NCBI RefSeq assembly: GCF_030464365.1
Contig: NZ_VCYI01000003.1
Span: 1 to 64,000, forward strand
Source of the DNA: Methanoculleus methanifontis
GTDB taxonomy: Archaea > Halobacteriota > Methanomicrobia > Methanomicrobiales > Methanoculleaceae
Length of the DNA stretch: 64,000 bases
Reading direction: 5' to 3'
The notes beneath the pieces are model-generated. The model saw only the letters and a list, made by a program, of their open reading frames with translations. It was not told the origin of the DNA and made no database searches. Of this stretch, positions 19,295 through 30,394 are shown piece after piece; the stretch's first letter is position 1, and every line of letters begins with the position of its first letter. Made by a program: the position numbers and the translations under genes.

Positions 19295-19792
19295 ATGCCA
19301 AAGATTACCGTAAAAAAGCGTCACGTCATCCGGAAATCACAGATAAGCGAACTTCTCGAGCGACTCACGGACGAGATCGGTGCATCGGCCGACCTCTTCC
19401 GGTCGGAGAGGATCGAGCGGGCGGAGACGGTTGCTTCTGTCGGGATCTACCTCGTCGATAAAAAACCCCTCCTGATGGGAACCGAAGATTGGACTTTTCC
19501 GACCCTGCGTGGGCTCGTCGAGCACCCGATCCCCGAGCGGCGGGTGGTGGTCGATTCCGGCGCGGTCAGGTTTGTCGCAAACGGCGCGGATGCCATGCGC
19601 CCCGGGATCGTATCGATCTCGCCTGATGTCCGTGCGGGGCACCCGGTGCAGGTCGTCGAGGAACGGCACGGAAAACCGCTTGCCGTGGGAATTGCACTCC
19701 TTGATGCAGCCGATATGGAGCGGCAGGAGAAGGGCAAGTCCGTTAAAAGCGTCCATTATGTTGGGGACGATCTCTGGAATCTGGAGGTCTGA
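19295..19792 (+). CDS. PUA-domain RNA-binding protein (MCT-1/Tma20-like)
   Basis: 165 aa. The N-terminal domain (about 1-75) is like the pre-PUA region of MCTS1 (KKRHVIRKSQISELLERL). The C-terminal PUA domain (about 76-155) contains VVDSGAVRFVANGADAMRPGI. Eukaryotic relatives act in translation re-initiation and 40S recycling; the archaeal role is likely rRNA or tRNA binding. It diverges from lsm and is followed by sepF after 50 bp. Confidence 0.88.
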   Translation: MPKITVKKRHVIRKSQISELLERLTDEIGASADLFRSERIERAETVASVGIYLVDKKPLLMGTEDWTFPTLRGLVEHPIPERRVVVDSGAVRFVANGADAMRPGIVSISPDVRAGHPVQVVEERHGKPLAVGIALLDAADMERQEKGKSVKSVHYVGDDLWNLEV

Positions 19793-19842
19793 CGGAGAAA
19801 ATAATGGATACAATTAAATAAAATTCATTCCTCAATTTTTCT

Positions 19843-20220
19843 ATGGTTAAAAAACTCTTTGACAGCATTCTCGGCAAAAGTCCGGCACGGAACGAAGAGG
19901 ACTACATGGAACTCGATCTTGCTTCCTACGAGGGACCGAACGACGAAGAACCGGCATCCATGTACGTTAAGATCGCCACCATCGCCGACCTCAAAGATAC
20001 CCCCCGCGTCAAAGACGAGGTTTACAACGGCAATATCGTGATCGTCGACATCGGGCGGCTGAAGATGGATAAGGTGACGTTCGAGCGGGTCTTAAAGGAT
20101 CTTCGCGACGTGGCAAAGGACGTGAACGGCGACATCGTCGGCCTCGGCGAGCAGAAGTACGTCGTCATCACGCCCATGTCCGTCAAGGTCTCCCGCGAGA
20201 AGATCGGCGGGGGCCTCTAG
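19843..20220 (+). CDS. sepF: Cell division protein SepF (archaeal)
   Basis: 125 aa. It has an N-terminal amphipathic helix (MVKKLFDSILGK) for membrane binding, a charged linker with YMELDL, and the SepF core (VKIATIADLKDT to VGLGEQKYVVITP). In archaea SepF anchors FtsZ to the membrane at the division site. A/T-rich promoter DNA (acaattaaataaaa, about 19808-19822) precedes it. Its stop overlaps the GTG start of the ZPR1 gene. Confidence 0.93.
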   Translation: MVKKLFDSILGKSPARNEEDYMELDLASYEGPNDEEPASMYVKIATIADLKDTPRVKDEVYNGNIVIVDIGRLKMDKVTFERVLKDLRDVAKDVNGDIVGLGEQKYVVITPMSVKVSREKIGGGL

Positions 20221-20747
20221 TGCAGGAGTCCCATTCGGGAACCTGTCCCGCCTGCGGGAGCGAGATCCGGATCGTCCATCACCGTCTCGACATCCCTCAC
20301 TTCCCGGATCTCCTGCTCGTAGCAATCGCCTGCGAGGCCTGCGGCTACCGGCACACCGATACCATCATCCTCGGGGAGGGTGAGCCGGTCCGGTGGACGG
20401 TGCGGGTGGAGGAGCCCGAAGACCTCGCCATCCGGGTGGCGCGGAGCACGACGGGGAGGATCGAGATCCCGGAACTCGGCCTCGCGGTCGAGCCCGGCAC
20501 CGCCTGCGAGGGGTTCGTCACCAACATCGAAGGGGTTCTCCACCGCTTTGAGCAGGCGGTACAGACAGTCCTCGCGAACCCCGAGAGCGAAGACGAGCGG
20601 GCGGCCGCACTCAGGATGATGGAGACGATCGCCGCCGCACGGGAGGTGGCCTTCCCGTTCACGGTCATCCTCGAGGATCCTGCCGGAAATAGCGCGCTCG
20701 CCGGTGAGAATGCCGAAAAGATGCTCCTCGATCAGGGAGAAGACTGA
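20220..20747 (+). CDS. ZPR1-type zinc finger protein
   Basis: 175 aa, GTG start sharing one base with the sepF stop (TAGTG). The zinc finger CPACGSEIRIVHH...CEACGYRHTD (about residues 9-43) and the domain after it match archaeal ZPR1. Eukaryotic ZPR1 helps fold eEF1A; an archaeal role in EF1A folding is plausible. A T10 run follows the stop. Confidence 0.9.
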   Translation: MQESHSGTCPACGSEIRIVHHRLDIPHFPDLLLVAIACEACGYRHTDTIILGEGEPVRWTVRVEEPEDLAIRVARSTTGRIEIPELGLAVEPGTACEGFVTNIEGVLHRFEQAVQTVLANPESEDERAAALRMMETIAAAREVAFPFTVILEDPAGNSALAGENAEKMLLDQGED

Positions 20748-21331: not shown

Positions 21332-21814
21332 CTACAACAACCCGGCTCTCCTGAACATCGGCCGGACCTCGGCCCCCTCCATGTTCCCCGCGGCCCAGGT
21401 GTAACGCTCCCGGATCCCGGGCGGGAGGTCGCGTTCCGGTATCGATACGAACCTGAACTCCGCGTAAAACCCGGCGAGGCTCTCGACGGCGTACATGTAG
21501 AGATCGTCGTTGTGGCAGGCCACAACAAGGGCGGCCATCGTCGTGCGGGCATACCCCTTGTTGCGGCAGCCCTCGGGCGTGAAGACGCCGTCGACCTCCA
21601 GGCCGCCGGGATGCCTCCTGCACCGGGCGAGAGAGACGATCTGCCCGGCAAGGAAGGTCGCGAAGACCCGGTCTCGTGCAGGATCGCCGATCGTGCCATG
21701 GTAATCGCGCCAGACCTCGTCCGCGGCGGAGAACTCCGCGCTTGTCAGTTCACGAACCTCCGGTCGGATTCCGACCGCTTTTGTGCCCGATTCTGGAAGA
21801 ACGGCAGTTATCAT
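21332..21814 (-). CDS. GNAT family acetyltransferase
   Basis: 160 aa. The GNAT core is seen as GVFTPEGCRNKGYARTTMAALV, where RNKGYA is the acetyl-CoA loop, and the C-terminal YAVESLAGFYAEFRF. The start was set at the ATG at 21814 after a GAGGTGAAAG site; the longer open frame overlaps the kinase gene. It follows the PAS kinase gene by 10 bp and may be the last gene of the chemosensory operon. The substrate is unknown. Confidence 0.8.
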   Translation of the reverse strand: MITAVLPESGTKAVGIRPEVRELTSAEFSAADEVWRDYHGTIGDPARDRVFATFLAGQIVSLARCRRHPGGLEVDGVFTPEGCRNKGYARTTMAALVVACHNDDLYMYAVESLAGFYAEFRFVSIPERDLPPGIRERYTWAAGNMEGAEVRPMFRRAGLL

Positions 21815-21824
21815 CTCTTTCACC

Positions 21825-23231
21825 TCAGACAATCCTGTAGCCCTCAGACGGCACCAGGATCTCGAACCTCGCACCCGTCCCGAACGTCCCGGTCTCGCGG
21901 ATCGCGATCCCGGTGATGGCAAGTATCTCGTGGGCAAGGAAGAGCCCGTGCCCGTAACTCTCCGGCTTCTGCCCAAAAAGGCCTCTCTTCTCCGCGTCGG
22001 GGATGCCGGTCCCGTCGTCCTCGACGATGATTGCGCACCCCTCCGGGCGCAACTGGTAGGTGACAACGATCCTGCTTGCCTTCGTCGCCGGAGCGAGCGA
22101 GTTCTCAAAGAGGTGAGTAAAGACCATCGCGAGGTGGGGGTCGGCGAAGATCTCGAGCCGTTCCGTCCACGCGTCGAAGGAGACGTCCCCGAAGGAGAGG
22201 CCTGCGGCAGCTCTCCTGACGGCCTGCTGCACCGGGATCCATGCCGGCGGCGACGTCCCGATGTCGCGGAACTCGCGGGAGATCTCGATCTGCCGCCGGA
22301 TTCCGCTTGCGGCATTGTTCAGGTCGTCGATGAAGGAGAGGACCTCGGGATCGTCGAACTTCATCACGCCCAGCGAGAGATGCCCATACAGGACCGCAAG
22401 CCGGTTCGCGAGGTCAGTGCGCAGGATCCCCGTGAGGGTGTTGAGCTGGCGCCCGGTGTTCTGCAGCGCGGCCTCCGTCATGACCTCGTCGTTGACGTCC
22501 CGGATGGACTCGATCGCCCCGGTGACCCGTCCGCTCCGGTCGAGAAGCGTGGTCGCTGCGAACCTGATGTGCGCACCCCGCCCGCCCCTGAGAAGAGGGG
22601 TGTAGACCTCCGCGACAAGGACGTCGCCGCTCCTTCTGACCGACGGATACCCGGCCTCGGGATCGCCCTGGAGAATCCGGTCTGCAAGCAGCGGCCGCGC
22701 CTCACCGTAAAAGGGCACGGCGTACTCGTAGTCCCCCCGGCCGAGCATGGCCTCTTTCTTCACTCCGGTCATCTCCTCGATCGCGCGGTTCCAGGCGATG
22801 ACCCTCCCCTCGCGGTCGATGGCGAAGGTAGCGTCGGGCAGGAACTCGATGATCTGGTTCATCTGCTGCTCGGACTCACGGAGTTTCGTTGCCAGGAACG
22901 CAACCACCCAGCCGATGAGGACGAGGAGGATCGCACGGGGAAGGATGGTGTACGCGAGCAGAGGAGCCGGCGGGGAGAGGAAGTAGGTCGTGACGGCGTA
23001 GATGGATGCAAAGCAGACGGAGAAGAGGATGCCCCGGCGCGGGTACCAGTAACTCGCGAGGATGATTGGGATGGTCAGCGGGAGGGTAGGGAGGGGGAGA
23101 AGCCCTTCCGGTGCGCCGAGGACCATGGCGAGCAGGTTTCCGCCGAGGGTCAGCACGGCTAGCCCGGCGATGATCGCGATGCGGTTGCGCGTATCGGTGA
23201 TAAACGTGGTCTGGATGTCGGTGACGCTCAT
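21825..23231 (-). CDS. Membrane PAS histidine-kinase-like protein lacking the H-box His
   Basis: 468 aa. Four or five N-terminal membrane helices (about 18-125) lead to a PAS domain (about 135-260) and a kinase-like core. The ATPase domain is intact: ENSL (N box), DDGTGIP (G1) and GHGLFLA (G2). The dimerisation helix reads ILRTDLANRL where the adjacent paralogue has ITRHDLLNQL, so the phosphoacceptor His is Thr. It may be a pseudokinase or transfer phosphate elsewhere. It lies in the chemosensory operon 28 bp after the REC-kinase gene. Confidence 0.85.
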   Translation of the reverse strand: MSVTDIQTTFITDTRNRIAIIAGLAVLTLGGNLLAMVLGAPEGLLPLPTLPLTIPIILASYWYPRRGILFSVCFASIYAVTTYFLSPPAPLLAYTILPRAILLVLIGWVVAFLATKLRESEQQMNQIIEFLPDATFAIDREGRVIAWNRAIEEMTGVKKEAMLGRGDYEYAVPFYGEARPLLADRILQGDPEAGYPSVRRSGDVLVAEVYTPLLRGGRGAHIRFAATTLLDRSGRVTGAIESIRDVNDEVMTEAALQNTGRQLNTLTGILRTDLANRLAVLYGHLSLGVMKFDDPEVLSFIDDLNNAASGIRRQIEISREFRDIGTSPPAWIPVQQAVRRAAAGLSFGDVSFDAWTERLEIFADPHLAMVFTHLFENSLAPATKASRIVVTYQLRPEGCAIIVEDDGTGIPDAEKRGLFGQKPESYGHGLFLAHEILAITGIAIRETGTFGTGARFEILVPSEGYRIV

Positions 23232-23259
23232 GAGGGAAGCCTGCGGTTATGGTCTCGGT

Positions 23260-24552
23260 TCATTCGGTCTGCCGGCCGGGAGCACGGATCACTTTTGCCG
23301 GGCAGAGGAGTTCGAATCGTGCTCCGCTCCCGGGGATCCCCGTCTCCTGGATGGTGATCCCGGTTATGGCCAGGATCTCCCGCGCGAGGAAGAGGCCGAG
23401 CCCGGTATTCATGCCGTGCGCGTAGGAAAAGATCTTCTCCTTATCCCCGGCAGGAACTCCCACGCCGTCATCCTCGCAGAGGATGGTGTAGGTCTCTCCA
23501 TCCTGTTTGAGGCTGAAGGTGATGGTGGTGACCGCCTCCCCGTAGCGCAGCGAGTTTTCGATGAGGTTCGAGAAGACCTTCTCGATGAGCGGGTCGGCGA
23601 AGATCTCCACCCCCGCCGGAATGGCGTTCTCAAGGGTTACCTTGCCCGTCGAGACGTAGTTCTCCGACCGCTCCACAAGCGTCCTGATCTCCTGCCAGGT
23701 TGGAGCCGCTGCCCCCACCTTCTGGTACTCCGCCGTAAACCGGACGGTGTTGTTGATCCGGTTCACTATCTCGGCAGCGCTCTCGACGTGACGCCACGCG
23801 TTTTCCGGTTCCCGCTCGCGCAGCACCTGGGCCAGGTCGAGATACCCCCAGAGCGCCGCGAGCTGGTTTAAGAGGTCGTGACGGGTGATGCTTGCCATGA
23901 GCTGGAGTTTCCTGTTGGCTTCCGCAAGCGCTTTTTCCACGCGCCGCCGTTCCTGGTTCTCGGCGGCAAGGCTCTCGTTACTGCGCGAGAGACCCGCGAC
24001 GGCTTCCTGGAGCTGCTCGTTTAAGGAGTGCAGCTGCTCCTGCGCCTCCTGAAGTTCGGTGTTCTTCGACACCGCGATGGTATACGTCGAGAGGAGGGTG
24101 TTTAAGATCTTGAGCCGTCCTGCGCTGATGGTATAGGTGTTGCCGGCGAAGGGAATCTCCAGTTCGGCGGGAGATTCTTCTGGTTCAGGCATCTCCCGCG
24201 TCCGCATGACGGCCTCGATCTGGGAGCGGACGTGTTTGGGGTCGACAGGTTTGACGATGAAACTGTCCGCTCCCGATGCCAGCCCTTTCAGCACGTCGGC
24301 AGGATCGAAGAGGTTGGTGACCAGGATGACGGGTATATCCGGGTTCTGCTGCTTGATCCGGCGGCAGAGTTCGTACCCGTCCATCTCCGGCATCATGATG
24401 TCGGTCAGGACGATATCGGGCATATCGACCTCCATCCGCCGTATCGCCTCGATGCCGTCAGCAGCCAGAACGACGTCATACCCTTCCGTCTCAAGAACGT
24501 AGCGGATGAACTCGGCCTGTGTCCTGCTGTCCTCTACCACCAGAACGCTCAT
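23260..24552 (-). CDS. Response regulator-histidine kinase hybrid
   Basis: 430 aa. The N-terminal REC domain (about 1-120) has the acidic pair and Asp51 in VLTDIMMPEMDG. Next comes a helical linker with coiled-coil character (about 150-220), an H-box TRHDLLNQL, and a HATPase with ENSLRYG, EDDGVGVP and GLGLFLA. The ATG at 24552 starts the REC domain exactly; an upstream in-frame ATG at 24606 would overlap cheA. It probably receives phosphate from the CheA-like kinase and relays it. Confidence 0.9.
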   Translation of the reverse strand: MSVLVVEDSRTQAEFIRYVLETEGYDVVLAADGIEAIRRMEVDMPDIVLTDIMMPEMDGYELCRRIKQQNPDIPVILVTNLFDPADVLKGLASGADSFIVKPVDPKHVRSQIEAVMRTREMPEPEESPAELEIPFAGNTYTISAGRLKILNTLLSTYTIAVSKNTELQEAQEQLHSLNEQLQEAVAGLSRSNESLAAENQERRRVEKALAEANRKLQLMASITRHDLLNQLAALWGYLDLAQVLREREPENAWRHVESAAEIVNRINNTVRFTAEYQKVGAAAPTWQEIRTLVERSENYVSTGKVTLENAIPAGVEIFADPLIEKVFSNLIENSLRYGEAVTTITFSLKQDGETYTILCEDDGVGVPAGDKEKIFSYAHGMNTGLGLFLAREILAITGITIQETGIPGSGARFELLCPAKVIRAPGRQTE

Positions 24553-24583
24553 TTTGGTTCCTCCTTCATGCTTTCCTTCCATA

Positions 24584-26890
24584 TCATCCCTGGATCTCTC
24601 CCTCACGGCGATGGGTCAGGCGCCGGACTATCTTGAGAAAATCTTCTGCCTCAAAGTTCTTCTTGACGATATATGCATCCGCCCCGACCGCCTTTCCCCG
24701 TTCCCGGTCCTCGGGCGAATCGAGCGAAGTGACCAGCGCCACCCGGATCCCGGCAAGTTGTCCACCTTCGGCCCGTATCTTCTCGGTGAGCGTGAAACCG
24801 TTCATCCGGGGCATATCGACATCCGAAACGACCATATCAAACTCATGCTGCTTAAGCCTTGCGAATGCGTCGATCCCGTTAGAAGCGGTCTCAACACGAT
24901 ATCCTGCCCCTTCGAGAACGCTCCGTAGCAGGGCACGTGACGTAACCGAGTCCTCGACAACCAGGATCCGCCGCTCTGCCTCCCATGGGAGTGCTGATGT
25001 CGATACCGACCGCTCCGCCTGCATAGCGTCCTGGATCAGTTCGAGGGGATCGAGCACGAGTGCCAGACGTCCGTCCCCGAGGATCACGGCTCCGTCGATC
25101 CTCCGCACGGAGGTGAGCTGACTGCCGAGTGGTCGGACGACGATCTCCTGCACCCGGATCACCTCGTCGACCATACACGCGATCTGCCCGGCCCCGTATG
25201 CGATGATGACGAGGGGTTTCGGCCGTTCTTCCGCCATGACGGGGTCGGACGGGGGGATGCCCAGGGCATCGCTGAGCCGGATGACCTCGATCGTCTCCCC
25301 TGAGAGCCGGATCGTCGGCCGGCCCCTGGAGATGGTCAGGGAGTCCGGGCGAACCCGGAGAACCTGCTTCACCTGCTGCATCGGGAGGACATATACCTGC
25401 CGTTCAGAACGAACAAGCAGCCCGCGGAGGGTGGCCATCCTCACCGGGACGGTCAGGGTGATCGCCGTCCCCTTCCCGACGGCCGAGGAGACCGTCACCT
25501 CCCCCCCGAGACGGGAGACAGTGTCTTCCACGATTGCAAGCCCGAGCCCCCTCCCCGAGAGGTCGGTGACGATCCGGCTCGTGGTCATCCCCGAGCGGAA
25601 GATGAGCCAGATCGCCTCGCTGTCCGTGAGGCTTGCGTCCTCCTCGGGCGTGATCACCCCGTTCTCGACGGCGGTCCTCCGGATCGCTCTGCTCTCGATG
25701 CCGGCACCATCGTCGGCCACCTCGATGCCGACCCTGCTCCCCGACCGGGGGAAGACCCGGATCCGCACGGAACCGGTGGCGGATTTTTGCTCTGCTCTCC
25801 TGACCTCCGGGCTCTCGATGCCGTGATCGATGCTGTTCCTGATGAGGTGCATGACCGGCCCCTTCAACGCATCGAGGATACGGCGGTCGACTTCGATCTC
25901 TCCGCCCTCGATCGTGAGGTCGACCGATTTCCCCGAGGTGCGGGAGAACTCTCTCACGAACGCGGAGAGCGGGGCAAATGTGGTTGAAGCCGGGAGCAGT
26001 GCGGCGTCGTGGATGAGGTCGGAGATCTCAGAGGTGCTCGTCTCGAGCGCCGACCGGTCGATCTCCATGAAACGCAGGTGCGTGACGAGGTCGTGCTGCA
26101 GGTTGGTTACGAACTCGCGGTTGTAATCCAGGAACTCGACCGCCCGCTGGAACGGCAGGACGAGATCGGGGGGAATCGCCGCCTTCTCTTCCCCGAAGGC
26201 CTTCCTGCGGATCATCTGCAGGTCGTTTAACGCCTGGGAGTGGTTCCACTGCCAGAGGGAGAAACGGGTCATCATCTCCTCGAGCTCGCGTATCCTCTGC
26301 ATGATGAAGAGCCGGGTCGTGAGGAGGCTGTCGGCTCCGGCGGTGAGCCGGTCGAGCTTGTGGGCGGCAATCCGCACCGTGCTCCGGTCGGTCCCCTGCT
26401 CGCCGCCGTTATAACCTCCTGGCGCGCCGTAAGCGTGGTTCTCCCGGGGAGGCGAACCCTGTTCGGCCGGCTGATCGCCCGCAAAATCGCTCCGTTCCGT
26501 CTTTTCCCGGTCGGGGATGGCCCGGAGCGCCCCGTTAATCTCCGCCGGTGAGGTATCGGGCCGCTCTCCCTGGAGAAGACTCTTGATTACCGCCATTGTC
26601 CGGTGGAAGAGGTCGAAGTCGTCCACCCCCGGGACGAACTCGCCCCGCTTCACAAGAGAGAAGGCGGTCTCGAGGTTCTGGCAGATCGACTCGATCTCCC
26701 GGAAGTTGACCGCCCGTGCGGCACCTTTCAGGCTGTGGACCGTCCGGTAAACCCGCTCGAGCAGGTCGGGCGTCGGCCCGCTCTTCTCAAGCGCGATCAG
26801 CCCCTCGGTGATTGTTTCAAGGTACTCGTCCGCCTCCTCGCGGAACGTCTCGAGGAGACGGGCACGAAATACATCGTCCGATCCAGTCAT
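24584..26890 (-). CDS. cheA: CheA-type histidine kinase with C-terminal receiver
   Basis: 768 aa. Hpt domain with VHSLKGAARA (His52), dimerisation region, HATPase with RNSIDHG, ADDGAGI and GRGLGLAIV, a CheW-like domain (about 490-630) and a C-terminal REC domain (about 645-765) with Asp in SDVDMPRMNG. There is no clear CheY-binding P2 domain. This layout is that of hybrid CheA proteins in Wsp/Frz/Pil-type systems. It follows the MCP gene by 11 bp. Confidence 0.93.
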   Translation of the reverse strand: MTGSDDVFRARLLETFREEADEYLETITEGLIALEKSGPTPDLLERVYRTVHSLKGAARAVNFREIESICQNLETAFSLVKRGEFVPGVDDFDLFHRTMAVIKSLLQGERPDTSPAEINGALRAIPDREKTERSDFAGDQPAEQGSPPRENHAYGAPGGYNGGEQGTDRSTVRIAAHKLDRLTAGADSLLTTRLFIMQRIRELEEMMTRFSLWQWNHSQALNDLQMIRRKAFGEEKAAIPPDLVLPFQRAVEFLDYNREFVTNLQHDLVTHLRFMEIDRSALETSTSEISDLIHDAALLPASTTFAPLSAFVREFSRTSGKSVDLTIEGGEIEVDRRILDALKGPVMHLIRNSIDHGIESPEVRRAEQKSATGSVRIRVFPRSGSRVGIEVADDGAGIESRAIRRTAVENGVITPEEDASLTDSEAIWLIFRSGMTTSRIVTDLSGRGLGLAIVEDTVSRLGGEVTVSSAVGKGTAITLTVPVRMATLRGLLVRSERQVYVLPMQQVKQVLRVRPDSLTISRGRPTIRLSGETIEVIRLSDALGIPPSDPVMAEERPKPLVIIAYGAGQIACMVDEVIRVQEIVVRPLGSQLTSVRRIDGAVILGDGRLALVLDPLELIQDAMQAERSVSTSALPWEAERRILVVEDSVTSRALLRSVLEGAGYRVETASNGIDAFARLKQHEFDMVVSDVDMPRMNGFTLTEKIRAEGGQLAGIRVALVTSLDSPEDRERGKAVGADAYIVKKNFEAEDFLKIVRRLTHRREGEIQG

Positions 26891-26901
26891 GGCAAGTCGT
26901 G

Positions 26902-29283
26902 CTAGACCCGGTACTGCTGGGTGATCCTCTTTAAGCGAGCACCGAGCTCGTGCAGATCCTCGGCGGTCTTCTCCGCCTTATGGGTGGTCTCGAGGTTCTT
27001 CTGCGCCGCGTCCCGGATGTTCTCCATTGCGCTCGAGATCTGGTCTATACCTGAGGCCTGCGTCTGGATCGAGGAAGCGATCTCGATGACCTCCTGCGAG
27101 GTGTCTGCTATCGACTGGGTGAGCACCTCGATAACCTCCTGTGCGTTGCTCGTCAGCTGGGCCGCATCCGCGACGGATCGGATCCCCTGCTCGGTCGAGG
27201 TCGCGGTCGAGGAGACCCCCTGCTGGATATCCGTGAGGATAGCCCGGATGTTCGAGGTCGCTTTCTTCGACTGCTCGGCGAGGTTATGGATCTCGTTTGC
27301 GACGACGGCAAACCCTTTCCCGAACTCTCCGGCCTTCGCGGCTTCGATGGAGGCGTTCACCGCGAGCAGGTTGGACTGTTCGGAGATGTCGGTCACGGTC
27401 GCGATGATCTCGCCGACGGCCTGGCTCTGCTCAGAGAGCCGGATGACGTTCATCCGGACGACATCCATCTCCCGCTGGATCTGGTTCATACCTTCAAGGG
27501 TCTCGCGCACGGACTTCTGGCCGCCCTTCGAGACTTCCAGCGCCCGCATTGCCTTCTCGGAGACTCCTTTCGTCTTCTGATTCACGAGTTCGGTCTTCTT
27601 CCTGACGCTCTCGACCGAGTCCGAGGTCTCGTTCACCGTCGTAGCGGTCTGGGAACTGGCTGCGGCAAGTTGGGTCGTGACCGCCAGGATCTCGTTTGAA
27701 GCGAGCGAGAGAACCGAGACACCCTCATAGAGTTCCTCGCTGATCAGTTTCATCAACCGCGAGAGTTCGATCCCGATGGTGTTGAGGGCGTCGCGGTAGG
27801 CGACGAACTCCCCGGCGACCGGGATATTCTCGTCGAACCGGGCGGTGAAGTCGCCGGATGCGTAGAATCGCGCAAGCCGCATCGCCTCGTTCACCGGCTC
27901 GGTGATCGACTCGAGGGTCTTGTTGAACCCGGCGATGATCATCCGGTAGCCGCCGCGGAACGCTTTCTCGTCCCCGCGGATGGAGAGATCGCCCGCACGG
28001 GCGGCGTCGGTAAGTTTGAGCGTCTCTTTGTGGAGGTGGTCGAGTGACTGGACCATCATCGCGAGCGCGGGACGGATCTCGTCGCCTTCGTCGGCGACCG
28101 GGAACTCCTGGACATACTCGCCGAGAGCGATCTTTTTGAGGTTCCCGACGACGTTCTCCTGGAGATCGCCGGCGAACTCGTCCATCGTCCTGGCCATGAC
28201 TCCGATCTCGTCCTGGCGCCTGATGTTGAGCCGGGCGGAGAGGTGGCCGCTACGGAGCTCTTTGAGCATCAGGACGACCTGCTGCAGGGGATCGGCGATC
28301 GAGCGGCCGAAGAGGATGGCGATCGCAACGCCGATGGCGATGGAGGCAAGGACGACGAAGACGATCGTGTTCCTGATGGTGTCTATCGGCCCGGTGAAGT
28401 CGGAGAGCTCGGCACGCGAGACGATGTGCCAGTCGAGCGGTTCGAAGTAGGTGTAGGCGTCGATCATATCCGTTCCGTCGACCTGGTGGCGGATGATGCC
28501 GACCTTATCCTCGATCATCTCCTGGATATAGTCCTCGTCGGCCTTGCTCTCCCCCTCCTGGGATGGGTGTATGAGCAGCTGGCCGTTGCTATCGACGACG
28601 AACATGTAGCCGTTTTTGCCGATGACCGTCTCTTTAAGGCTCGACTTGACGACGTCGAGCGTCTCCTGCTCCTCGGTTCCGACGAAGAGAACCCCAATGA
28701 TGTTTCCGCGGCTGTCCTTTATCGGTTCGTACGCGGTGACGTAGCGCTTGCCGAAAAGGTCACGGCTCCCGTAGTAGGTCTCCCCCTGGTTCACCACGAC
28801 GTCGTAGACGTTCTGGGTCAGCTCGGTCCCGACCGCTCTCGTCCCGTCGGTTCCGATAACGTTTGTAGAGACCCTGATGGCATGGTCGTCGTAGACCTGG
28901 AAGACCGTCGCCGCCCCACCGACCAGGGACTGCACCTGGTCGACGATCTCGAAGTTGTCGTTGATGGTGTACGGGTTGCCGTTACCGTCCACCAGGGCCA
29001 ATTTCCCGTCTATGACCTCCGGGGTTCCCCGGGCGTAGAAGTTCTCCCGGAGGACGTTGAGATCGCTGTTCACCTTATTGCGGGTGAGTTTGTAGACGTC
29101 GTTGGTCCATCCCCGCGCGTCATGCACCTGTGTCTCGAGCAGCGTCTCGATCTGGTCGTTAATCACACCGCTCGAGCTGGTATACGCCACTATCCCGAGC
29201 ATAAGCGTCGGGATGATCGCCAGAAACAGGCATATGACGAGGATCTTCGTCCCGACTTTCATGTCTGAAAAAAATGTGAGCAT
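26902..29283 (-). CDS. Methyl-accepting chemotaxis protein
   Basis: About 793 aa from the ATG at 29283. It has TM1 (about 13-35), a large extracellular Cache-type sensor domain (about 36-300), TM2 (about 310-335), a HAMP domain, further HAMP-like linker repeats and a long signalling coiled coil with the conserved tip [15 protein letters not shown]. The ATG at 29334 is 6 bp from a TATA box (29341-29350), so the internal start is preferred. It should sense an extracellular small molecule and drive the CheA kinase. Confidence 0.93.
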
Positions 29284-29340
29284 GCTACTTCCGTTCCACC
29301 CGCTCTTGTACGACGACTTAATAGATTGGTGCACACCCCG

Positions 29341-29350
29341 GGATAAATAA
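29341..29350 (-). promoter_or_regulatory. TATA box before the MCP gene
   Basis: Minus-strand TTATTTATCC, about 58-67 bp before the chosen MCP start. It suggests an internal promoter below the cheW gene. Confidence 0.45.
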
Positions 29351-29413
29351 TGATCTGTCTCGCGAATGGCGTTTAAAATCTGCCTTTTCCCTTAATGGGT
29401 GGATAAAATCGGT

Positions 29414-30394
29414 TTATTTTCTTGTCTGGCCGATCATCATCGCGGGGTCGGCGAGGATCGCCGCCGCATCGAGGACGAGCACCGATCCTTCCGTGACACC
29501 CAGAAGATAACGCTGTTCGATCGGGGTCGTTTCAGGCTCTACAGGGGAGAACTGGTCGGTCGGTCGGATGTAGATGTCCGTGATATAATCCGCAAGAATT
29601 CCGAAGGTCACCGTTCCGTCGGAGAGGACGATGACCCGGTTGAGGTCGGTCAGGCCACGTTTCGGTATCGAGAAGAGTGCGCGGAGATCAACGACGGAGA
29701 TGATCTCCCCTCTGACGGCACAGATACCGACGATGAAGTCGGGCACCCCGGGAACCGGGGTGATCTCGTGCATGATGAAGACTTCGCGGATGTACTGCGT
29801 TTTGATGGCATACTCCTGGTCTGCGAGCCTGAACGTGAGGAGTTCTGAGAACGGTATCTCGCCTGTCTCCTCCTCCTCCGGCTGCGCGAACGCCCGTGCC
29901 CGTTCTGTGAGGACCTCACCGGCCTTTTCGGCGTCGTGAGGCGGTGTCCCCCCCCCGGTTCCGGCCGTGCCGGGCCGGAGGGGGTACTGCGCGGTCTCTT
30001 CTGCTGCAAGGAACGCGCCGAGGTCGTAGATGATGATCTTCCCGTCTTCGGTCAGCACCATGCCGGGAGGGGAGGAGGCGTCGGCTTCGGGCGGGAACTG
30101 GATCGGGCTCCCCTGCACCCCCTGCACCCCGTCCGCCCAGAGGGCCACGCATTCCCCGGAGAGGTGAGCGATGACGAGGACGTCGGTGGGGAGCGGAGGG
30201 CGGTCGGCAAGCCCGAGAAGTCTCCGGAGCGAGTAGACCGGGACGGTTCGGCCGCGCAGGTTCATGGTTCCCGCGCCCCCACGGCGTTTGCCGGTCGGCG
30301 GCTGGAGTTCCACCATGCCGACGACCTGCCGGGTCTCGGCAAGAGGGAGAGCGCAGGTCAGCCCCTCAACGGTGAAAAACAGAAGATGTGTCAT
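29414..30394 (-). CDS. cheW: Protein with two CheW domains
   Basis: 326 aa. The first CheW domain (about 1-135) includes GRTVPVYSLRRLLG; the second (about 180-320) includes EYAIKTQYIREVF, VPGVPDFIVGICAVRGEIISVVDLR. They are joined by a low-complexity acidic and Gly-rich linker. CheW couples receptors to CheA; a fused pair could bridge two receptors or kinases in an array. First gene of the chemosensory operon; the MCP gene follows after 130 bp. Confidence 0.9.
   Translation of the reverse strand: MTHLLFFTVEGLTCALPLAETRQVVGMVELQPPTGKRRGGAGTMNLRGRTVPVYSLRRLLGLADRPPLPTDVLVIAHLSGECVALWADGVQGVQGSPIQFPPEADASSPPGMVLTEDGKIIIYDLGAFLAAEETAQYPLRPGTAGTGGGTPPHDAEKAGEVLTERARAFAQPEEEETGEIPFSELLTFRLADQEYAIKTQYIREVFIMHEITPVPGVPDFIVGICAVRGEIISVVDLRALFSIPKRGLTDLNRVIVLSDGTVTFGILADYITDIYIRPTDQFSPVEPETTPIEQRYLLGVTEGSVLVLDAAAILADPAMMIGQTRK

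Follow-up and report, generated by a model that had tools for sequence, protein, structure and literature searches.

A second chemosensory array in Methanoculleus methanifontis, with a predicted formate receptor and a linked acetyltransferase gene

The archaeal chemosensory system for swimming comprises CheF, CheY, CheB, CheA, CheC, CheD and CheR, with CheY and CheF linking CheA to the archaellum. A different arrangement, CheW-CheR-CheW-MCP-CheA:REC-CheB-REC:kinase, is the layout known from Wsp-like operons. Little is known of what methanogen chemosensory systems sense or control, and the genome paper of Methanospirillum hungatei describes 27 MCPs that detect unknown signals (PMC4704411). Here we describe a gene cluster in a window of 64,000 nucleotides (bases 1-64000 of contig C23) from the 2.6 Mb, 99.9% complete genome of M. 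methanifontis. The cluster has the core MCP-CheW-CheA chemistry in common with the archaeal swimming system, but it lacks CheF, CheY, CheB, CheC, CheD and CheR, and its CheA has a receiver and no P2 domain.

Six genes lie on the minus strand. The first (29414..30394) encodes CheWW, two fused CheW coupling domains (PF01584 twice, 158 bits). It is followed by the MCP gene (26902..29334), whose product has a transmembrane segment, a Cache_3-Cache_2 sensor (PF17201, 254 bits; PF17202, 116 bits), two HAMP units (HAMP and HAMP_2) and an MCPsignal hairpin (PF00015, 117 bits), and probably begins at Met18, since the Methanoregula orthologs begin there. By Pfam, CheA-REC (24584..26890) consists of an Hpt/P1 domain, HATPase_c/P4, P5/CheW and a receiver, with P2 not detected, and the REC-kinase (23260..24606), which likely starts at an internal ATG near 24582, of a receiver, a coiled coil, an archaeal RHD-type H-box and HATPase_c. 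Next comes a membrane PAS protein (21825..23231; PAS_4, PAS and HATPase_c) with a kinase-like C terminus, in which the H-box histidine is replaced by threonine and the N and G1 boxes are kept. The final gene (21332..21814) encodes a GNAT acetyltransferase (PF00583, 22.0 bits against a cut-off of 20.7; GNAT fold by AlphaFold2/Foldseek); it begins 10 bases after the PAS-kinase gene, and the cluster coordinates start at its stop codon. The first-pass annotation had named the first five genes, on one strand with short gaps, and had placed the CheA P1 histidine at residue 52; Pfam and the open reading frames bear out all of this, and the GNAT gene, which it had left unnamed, completes the set. No CheR, CheB, CheC, CheD, CheF or stand-alone CheY gene was found within the cluster.

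The same annotation had advised looking for the gene set in relatives, and the six genes were indeed found across Methanomicrobiales. The order CheWW, MCP, CheA-REC, REC-kinase, PAS-kinase, GNAT recurs in Methanoculleus, Methanoregula and further families of the order, and among named relatives CheA-REC is present in M. sediminis, M. chikugoensis and several Methanoregula MAGs. Chance grouping is excluded, because gene order is kept down to about 45-55% identity; the catalytic and receiver residues of CheA are kept in 34-36 of 36 orthologs. The neighbouring ABC transporter, DUF4097, SepF, ZPR1 and PurF genes were considered as members of the system and rejected, as they flank the array in Methanoculleus and not in other families. 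PUA-domain, SepF and ZPR1 genes stand in a row on the plus strand beside the array (19295-20747), an arrangement kept in Methanoculleus, and in some Methanoculleus genomes (L055, L057, L059, L061 and L066) the orientation of the PurF-PUA-SepF-ZPR1 block with respect to the array is reversed.

Profile searches of the genome for CheW, MCP, archaellin and receiver domains located a canonical swimming system on other contigs. C30 carries archaellins, ArlH/I/J-like genes, CheF, CheY, CheB, a CheA with P1-P5, CheC and CheD, and C29 carries a PAS-PAS MCP, CheW and CheR. The whole genome has two MCPs, one per array, and four receiver proteins outside the che loci. The earlier statement that CheR, CheB, CheC, CheD and CheY are missing is thus correct for the locus and wrong for the genome, and the reading of the cluster as the only array has to be given up: a genome without methylation or CheY genes is ruled out by C29 and C30, which together supply every missing che gene and the archaellum. 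Therefore, we restate the finding as an additional array in a genome whose swimming system is complete. The first-pass annotation had expected that such a second locus would make the cluster a routine accessory array; the second locus exists, yet the array, apparently derived from a Wsp-like one and recurring as a set across Methanomicrobiales, is not routine.

More distant CheA-REC loci (about 40% identity) have the Wsp-like layout given above. Like these Wsp/ACF-type operons (L130, L131, L144-L152 and L155), the cluster has an MCP, two CheW units, a CheA with a C-terminal receiver and a downstream REC protein; however, it lacks CheR and CheB, its CheWs are fused, it has no GGDEF (WspR-like) output, and it has gained the PAS-pseudokinase and GNAT genes. 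In a CheA tree, the 35 sequences of the window type form one clade (100/100) nested among Wsp-type CheA, with L152 as its sister (95/93); since only one canonical CheA, on a long branch, served as outgroup, the rooting is tentative. For the C half of CheWW, the best match in all ten Wsp-type loci is the CheW behind CheR, at 94-125 bits where the N half reaches 4-21; for the N half, the CheW upstream of CheR is the better match in seven of the ten. Neither CheR nor CheB was found in any of the 39 window-type loci. On the simplest reading, a Wsp-like operon lost CheR and CheB, its two CheW genes fused, and the present array resulted; the cluster illustrates clearly how methylation may be lost from such an array in evolution. 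By architecture alone (CheA-REC, no P2), the cluster CheA is consistent with the ACF class (PMC10782961). Four complete Wsp-type operons (L145, L146, L149 and L150) have two different REC-kinases downstream, and a gene judged by eye to be replication factor C small subunit-like adjoins the same four.

We strongly predict that the cluster MCP is a formate receptor. The best PDB sequence matches of its sensor domain, 8py1 and 8py0, are also its best fold matches, and both are chemoreceptor sensor domains with formate; 8py0 matches the sensor model with a TM-score of 0.80 by target length and 28% identity. Over the sensor domain as a whole the AlphaFold prediction was of low quality (pLDDT 59, with the proximal half under 50), and the distal half alone was used. 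In PacF, R142, T145 and T158 are reported to affect formate binding (PMC12501870), and R154, T157 and T170 of the cluster MCP have the same Arg-x2-Thr-x12-Thr spacing. This triad is kept in 35 of 36 window-type receptors, the exception (L053) having Lys for Arg, and was seen in none of the Wsp-type receptors scored. In an independent study, formate was the ligand assigned to an sCache_3_3 domain having these residues (PMC12415202); the Arg by itself contacts carboxylates in general, as it also does in CitA and DcuS (PMC8698456). The PacF, McpF, Atu0526 and 8py0/8py1 sensors all share with the cluster receptor the Cache fold, to which its PF17201 and PF17202 matches also assign it, and the Thr residues at +3 and +16 from the Arg. 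They are chemotaxis receptors or have been studied as sensor domains, whereas the cluster receptor, with its predicted formate binding, is part of an array that has a CheA-REC of its own and lacks CheY.

Sensor domain identity is 84-95% within Methanoculleus and about 70% to Methanoregula, an unusually high conservation of the kind expected for one fixed ligand. The formate dehydrogenase alpha gene fdhA, recognised by a TIGR01591 match that exceeds the cut-off or is partial where the contig ends, is present in the flanking sequence retrieved for four of 22 array loci outside Methanoculleus, and near none of 12 Wsp-type and none of 15 Methanoculleus loci; this proximity has P = 0.0003-0.007 for 2-5 copies per genome, a calculation that assumes independent loci, which here share ancestry. 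In the source genome, fdhA and an FrhB/FdhB-like gene are on C28. Our search of the literature available to us on methanogen formate sensing and on archaeal arrays in methanogens found nothing relevant. The cluster offers a concrete, testable ligand for an array present in several Methanomicrobiales families, and that ligand, formate, supports growth and also serves as a currency of syntrophy.

That the array is separate from the swimming system and that its receptor responds to formate are the parts of our reading that we hold with good confidence. From the hairpin tip to the C-terminus, the signalling arm measures 141 residues in the cluster receptor family against 156 in the swimming receptor, a difference of 15 residues, or about two heptads, that is consistent with putative 40H (cluster) and 44H (swimming) classes. 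Receptors that differ in length would not be expected in one and the same array. In F1 systems the receptors are usually of the 44H class (PMC6943060). No methylation-site consensus was found in the Methanoculleus cluster receptors, as against three sites in the swimming receptor, and Methanoregula receptors of the cluster type often keep one. A strict version of this comparison, in which CheR-bearing relatives would have methylation sites and the cluster clade none, was dropped; the strict consensus separates the groups poorly, and our argument therefore relies solely on the full absence of sites in Methanoculleus.

These observations bear on the alternative that the array is a routine accessory to taxis, whose formate receptor would act through CheA-REC to phosphorylate the CheY of C30, so that cells swim to formate and the kinase-like genes and GNAT merely tune the response. 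The source genome has the full archaellum, CheY and CheF set that this would require, CheF co-occurs with the array in 47 of 54 near-complete array-bearing genomes, and CheR is present in all 24 named genomes. However, the cluster CheA lacks P2, the CheY-docking domain, and has a receiver of its own and a REC partner in its own operon, and the shorter receptor arm and the missing methylation sites in Methanoculleus likewise speak against a shared pathway. Among the seven CheF-negative array genomes, four have a clear ArlI, and in the other three (G169, G209 and G215; 93-98% complete) neither CheF nor ArlI was detected; the array is kept there, along with MCP-CheW-CheR genes of the other system. 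CheF and ArlI lie in one operon, and their joint absence could therefore be one assembly gap; these genomes support a non-swimming role only moderately. On balance, we consider routine accessory taxis unlikely. The first-pass annotation's proposal of an alternative-function array thus gains support from the P2-less CheA, the shorter arm, the absent methylation consensus and the three CheF- and ArlI-negative relatives; its further suggestion of gene or surface control as the output does not, as no such output was found.

That suggestion corresponds to an alternative-function array of the classical kind, acting on transcription or the cell surface, in which the REC-kinase, with or without the PAS-kinase, would phosphorylate a receiver elsewhere in the genome. 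The REC-kinase has intact H, N and G1 motifs in the source genome and in most orthologs, it is present in nearly every array locus, including those without PAS-kinase and GNAT, and the four receiver proteins outside the che loci could be its partners. On the other hand, the conserved neighbours include no DNA-binding or pilus gene, and in two loci that have neither PAS-kinase nor GNAT (L068, 7147-8007; L071, 10837-11706) the REC-kinase is truncated to a receiver and a degenerate helical domain with a degenerate H-box and no ATPase, so its kinase activity is dispensable there. We regard a transcriptional or surface output as unlikely.

We favour a different end point, the acetyltransferase. In all Methanoculleus orthologs the H-box of the PAS protein is of the RTDLANRL type, with Thr for His, and N and G1 are kept; the protein thus has no phosphorylatable H-box histidine, which most paralogs in the source genome do keep. 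Some Methanoregulaceae PAS-kinases keep the His and lose the N-box Asn and G1 Asp, and L064 has lost both. A pseudokinase in every genome was nevertheless rejected, as some Methanoregulaceae copies retain all motifs; the PAS-kinases of L128, L134 and L138 keep H, N and G1 and could be active enzymes. That catalytic residues were lost more than once, and not the same ones each time, suggests a conserved role for the PAS protein other than autophosphorylation. A phosphorelay among hybrids, as first envisaged, is therefore only half right: in the source genome the H-box of the last kinase offers no site for phosphorylation, and the gene that closes the conserved set encodes an acetyltransferase.

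The GNAT model (pLDDT 82) matches the folds of GCN5, ElaA and ribosomal-protein-S18 acetyltransferase, and the acetyl-CoA loop (R/Q-x-x-G-x-G/A) is present as R84-x-x-G87-Y-A89, with R84 and G87 invariant; acetyl transfer is its predicted activity. In three genomes (L129/L062, L128 and L134) a linker of 20-30 residues joins PAS-kinase and GNAT in a single open reading frame, whose product matches the PAS, HATPase_c and Acetyltransf profiles, and the array GNAT occurs only where the PAS-kinase does. Elsewhere in the source genome, a second His-less PAS-kinase (H-box RND) is followed by USP-USP-GNAT at C28:35441-38080 (L095:5442-8081), with no che genes nearby. On the basis of the fusion, the co-occurrence and the C28 pair, we propose that the GNAT is controlled by the PAS protein, much as other GNATs under sensory control are fused to a sensory or ligand domain or encoded next to one (the PAS-kinase here, USP-USP at C28). 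Six arrays (L063, L068, L071, L132, L139 and L140) have neither PAS-kinase nor GNAT, and GNAT therefore cannot be the sole output.

We suggest that the single transmembrane receptor binds formate, a substrate of methanogenesis, in its membrane-distal Cache module and controls CheA-REC via the fused CheW pair; that CheA would phosphorylate its own receiver and that of the REC-kinase; and that the REC-kinase would act on the membrane PAS protein, a pseudokinase in the source genome, which in turn would control the adjoining GNAT, so that formate availability would set the acetylation of some target. Gene order points to the array feeding PAS-kinase and GNAT through the REC-kinase, and gene linkage and fusion point to acetylation as the output. 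Because CheR and CheB have been lost, the array would probably report the formate level without methylation-based adaptation. We judge this full chain, from formate to GNAT, to be about evenly balanced between right and wrong, and a non-adapting, formate-controlled array with acetyltransferase output acting independently of swimming is a possibility that we put forward tentatively. The genome suggests no substrate for the GNAT, and in the literature available to us we found no paper linking a GNAT to a chemosensory array and no description of acetylation via a pseudokinase as an array output.

The proposed link from the array to PAS-kinase and GNAT could be challenged if these two were an independent PAS-sensing acetyltransferase that shares just a transcript with the formate array. 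A pair of the same type does stand outside any che locus on C28, and the pair is absent from some arrays, but within the arrays it lies directly behind the REC-kinase across several families, the gaps in Methanoculleus are short, and in some Methanoregulaceae the PAS-kinase and GNAT genes overlap by 4 bases; we think an independent pair very unlikely. In one locus (L137:13365-16824), the PAS-kinase gene is interrupted by an opposite-strand open reading frame of 577 residues that looks like an insertion.
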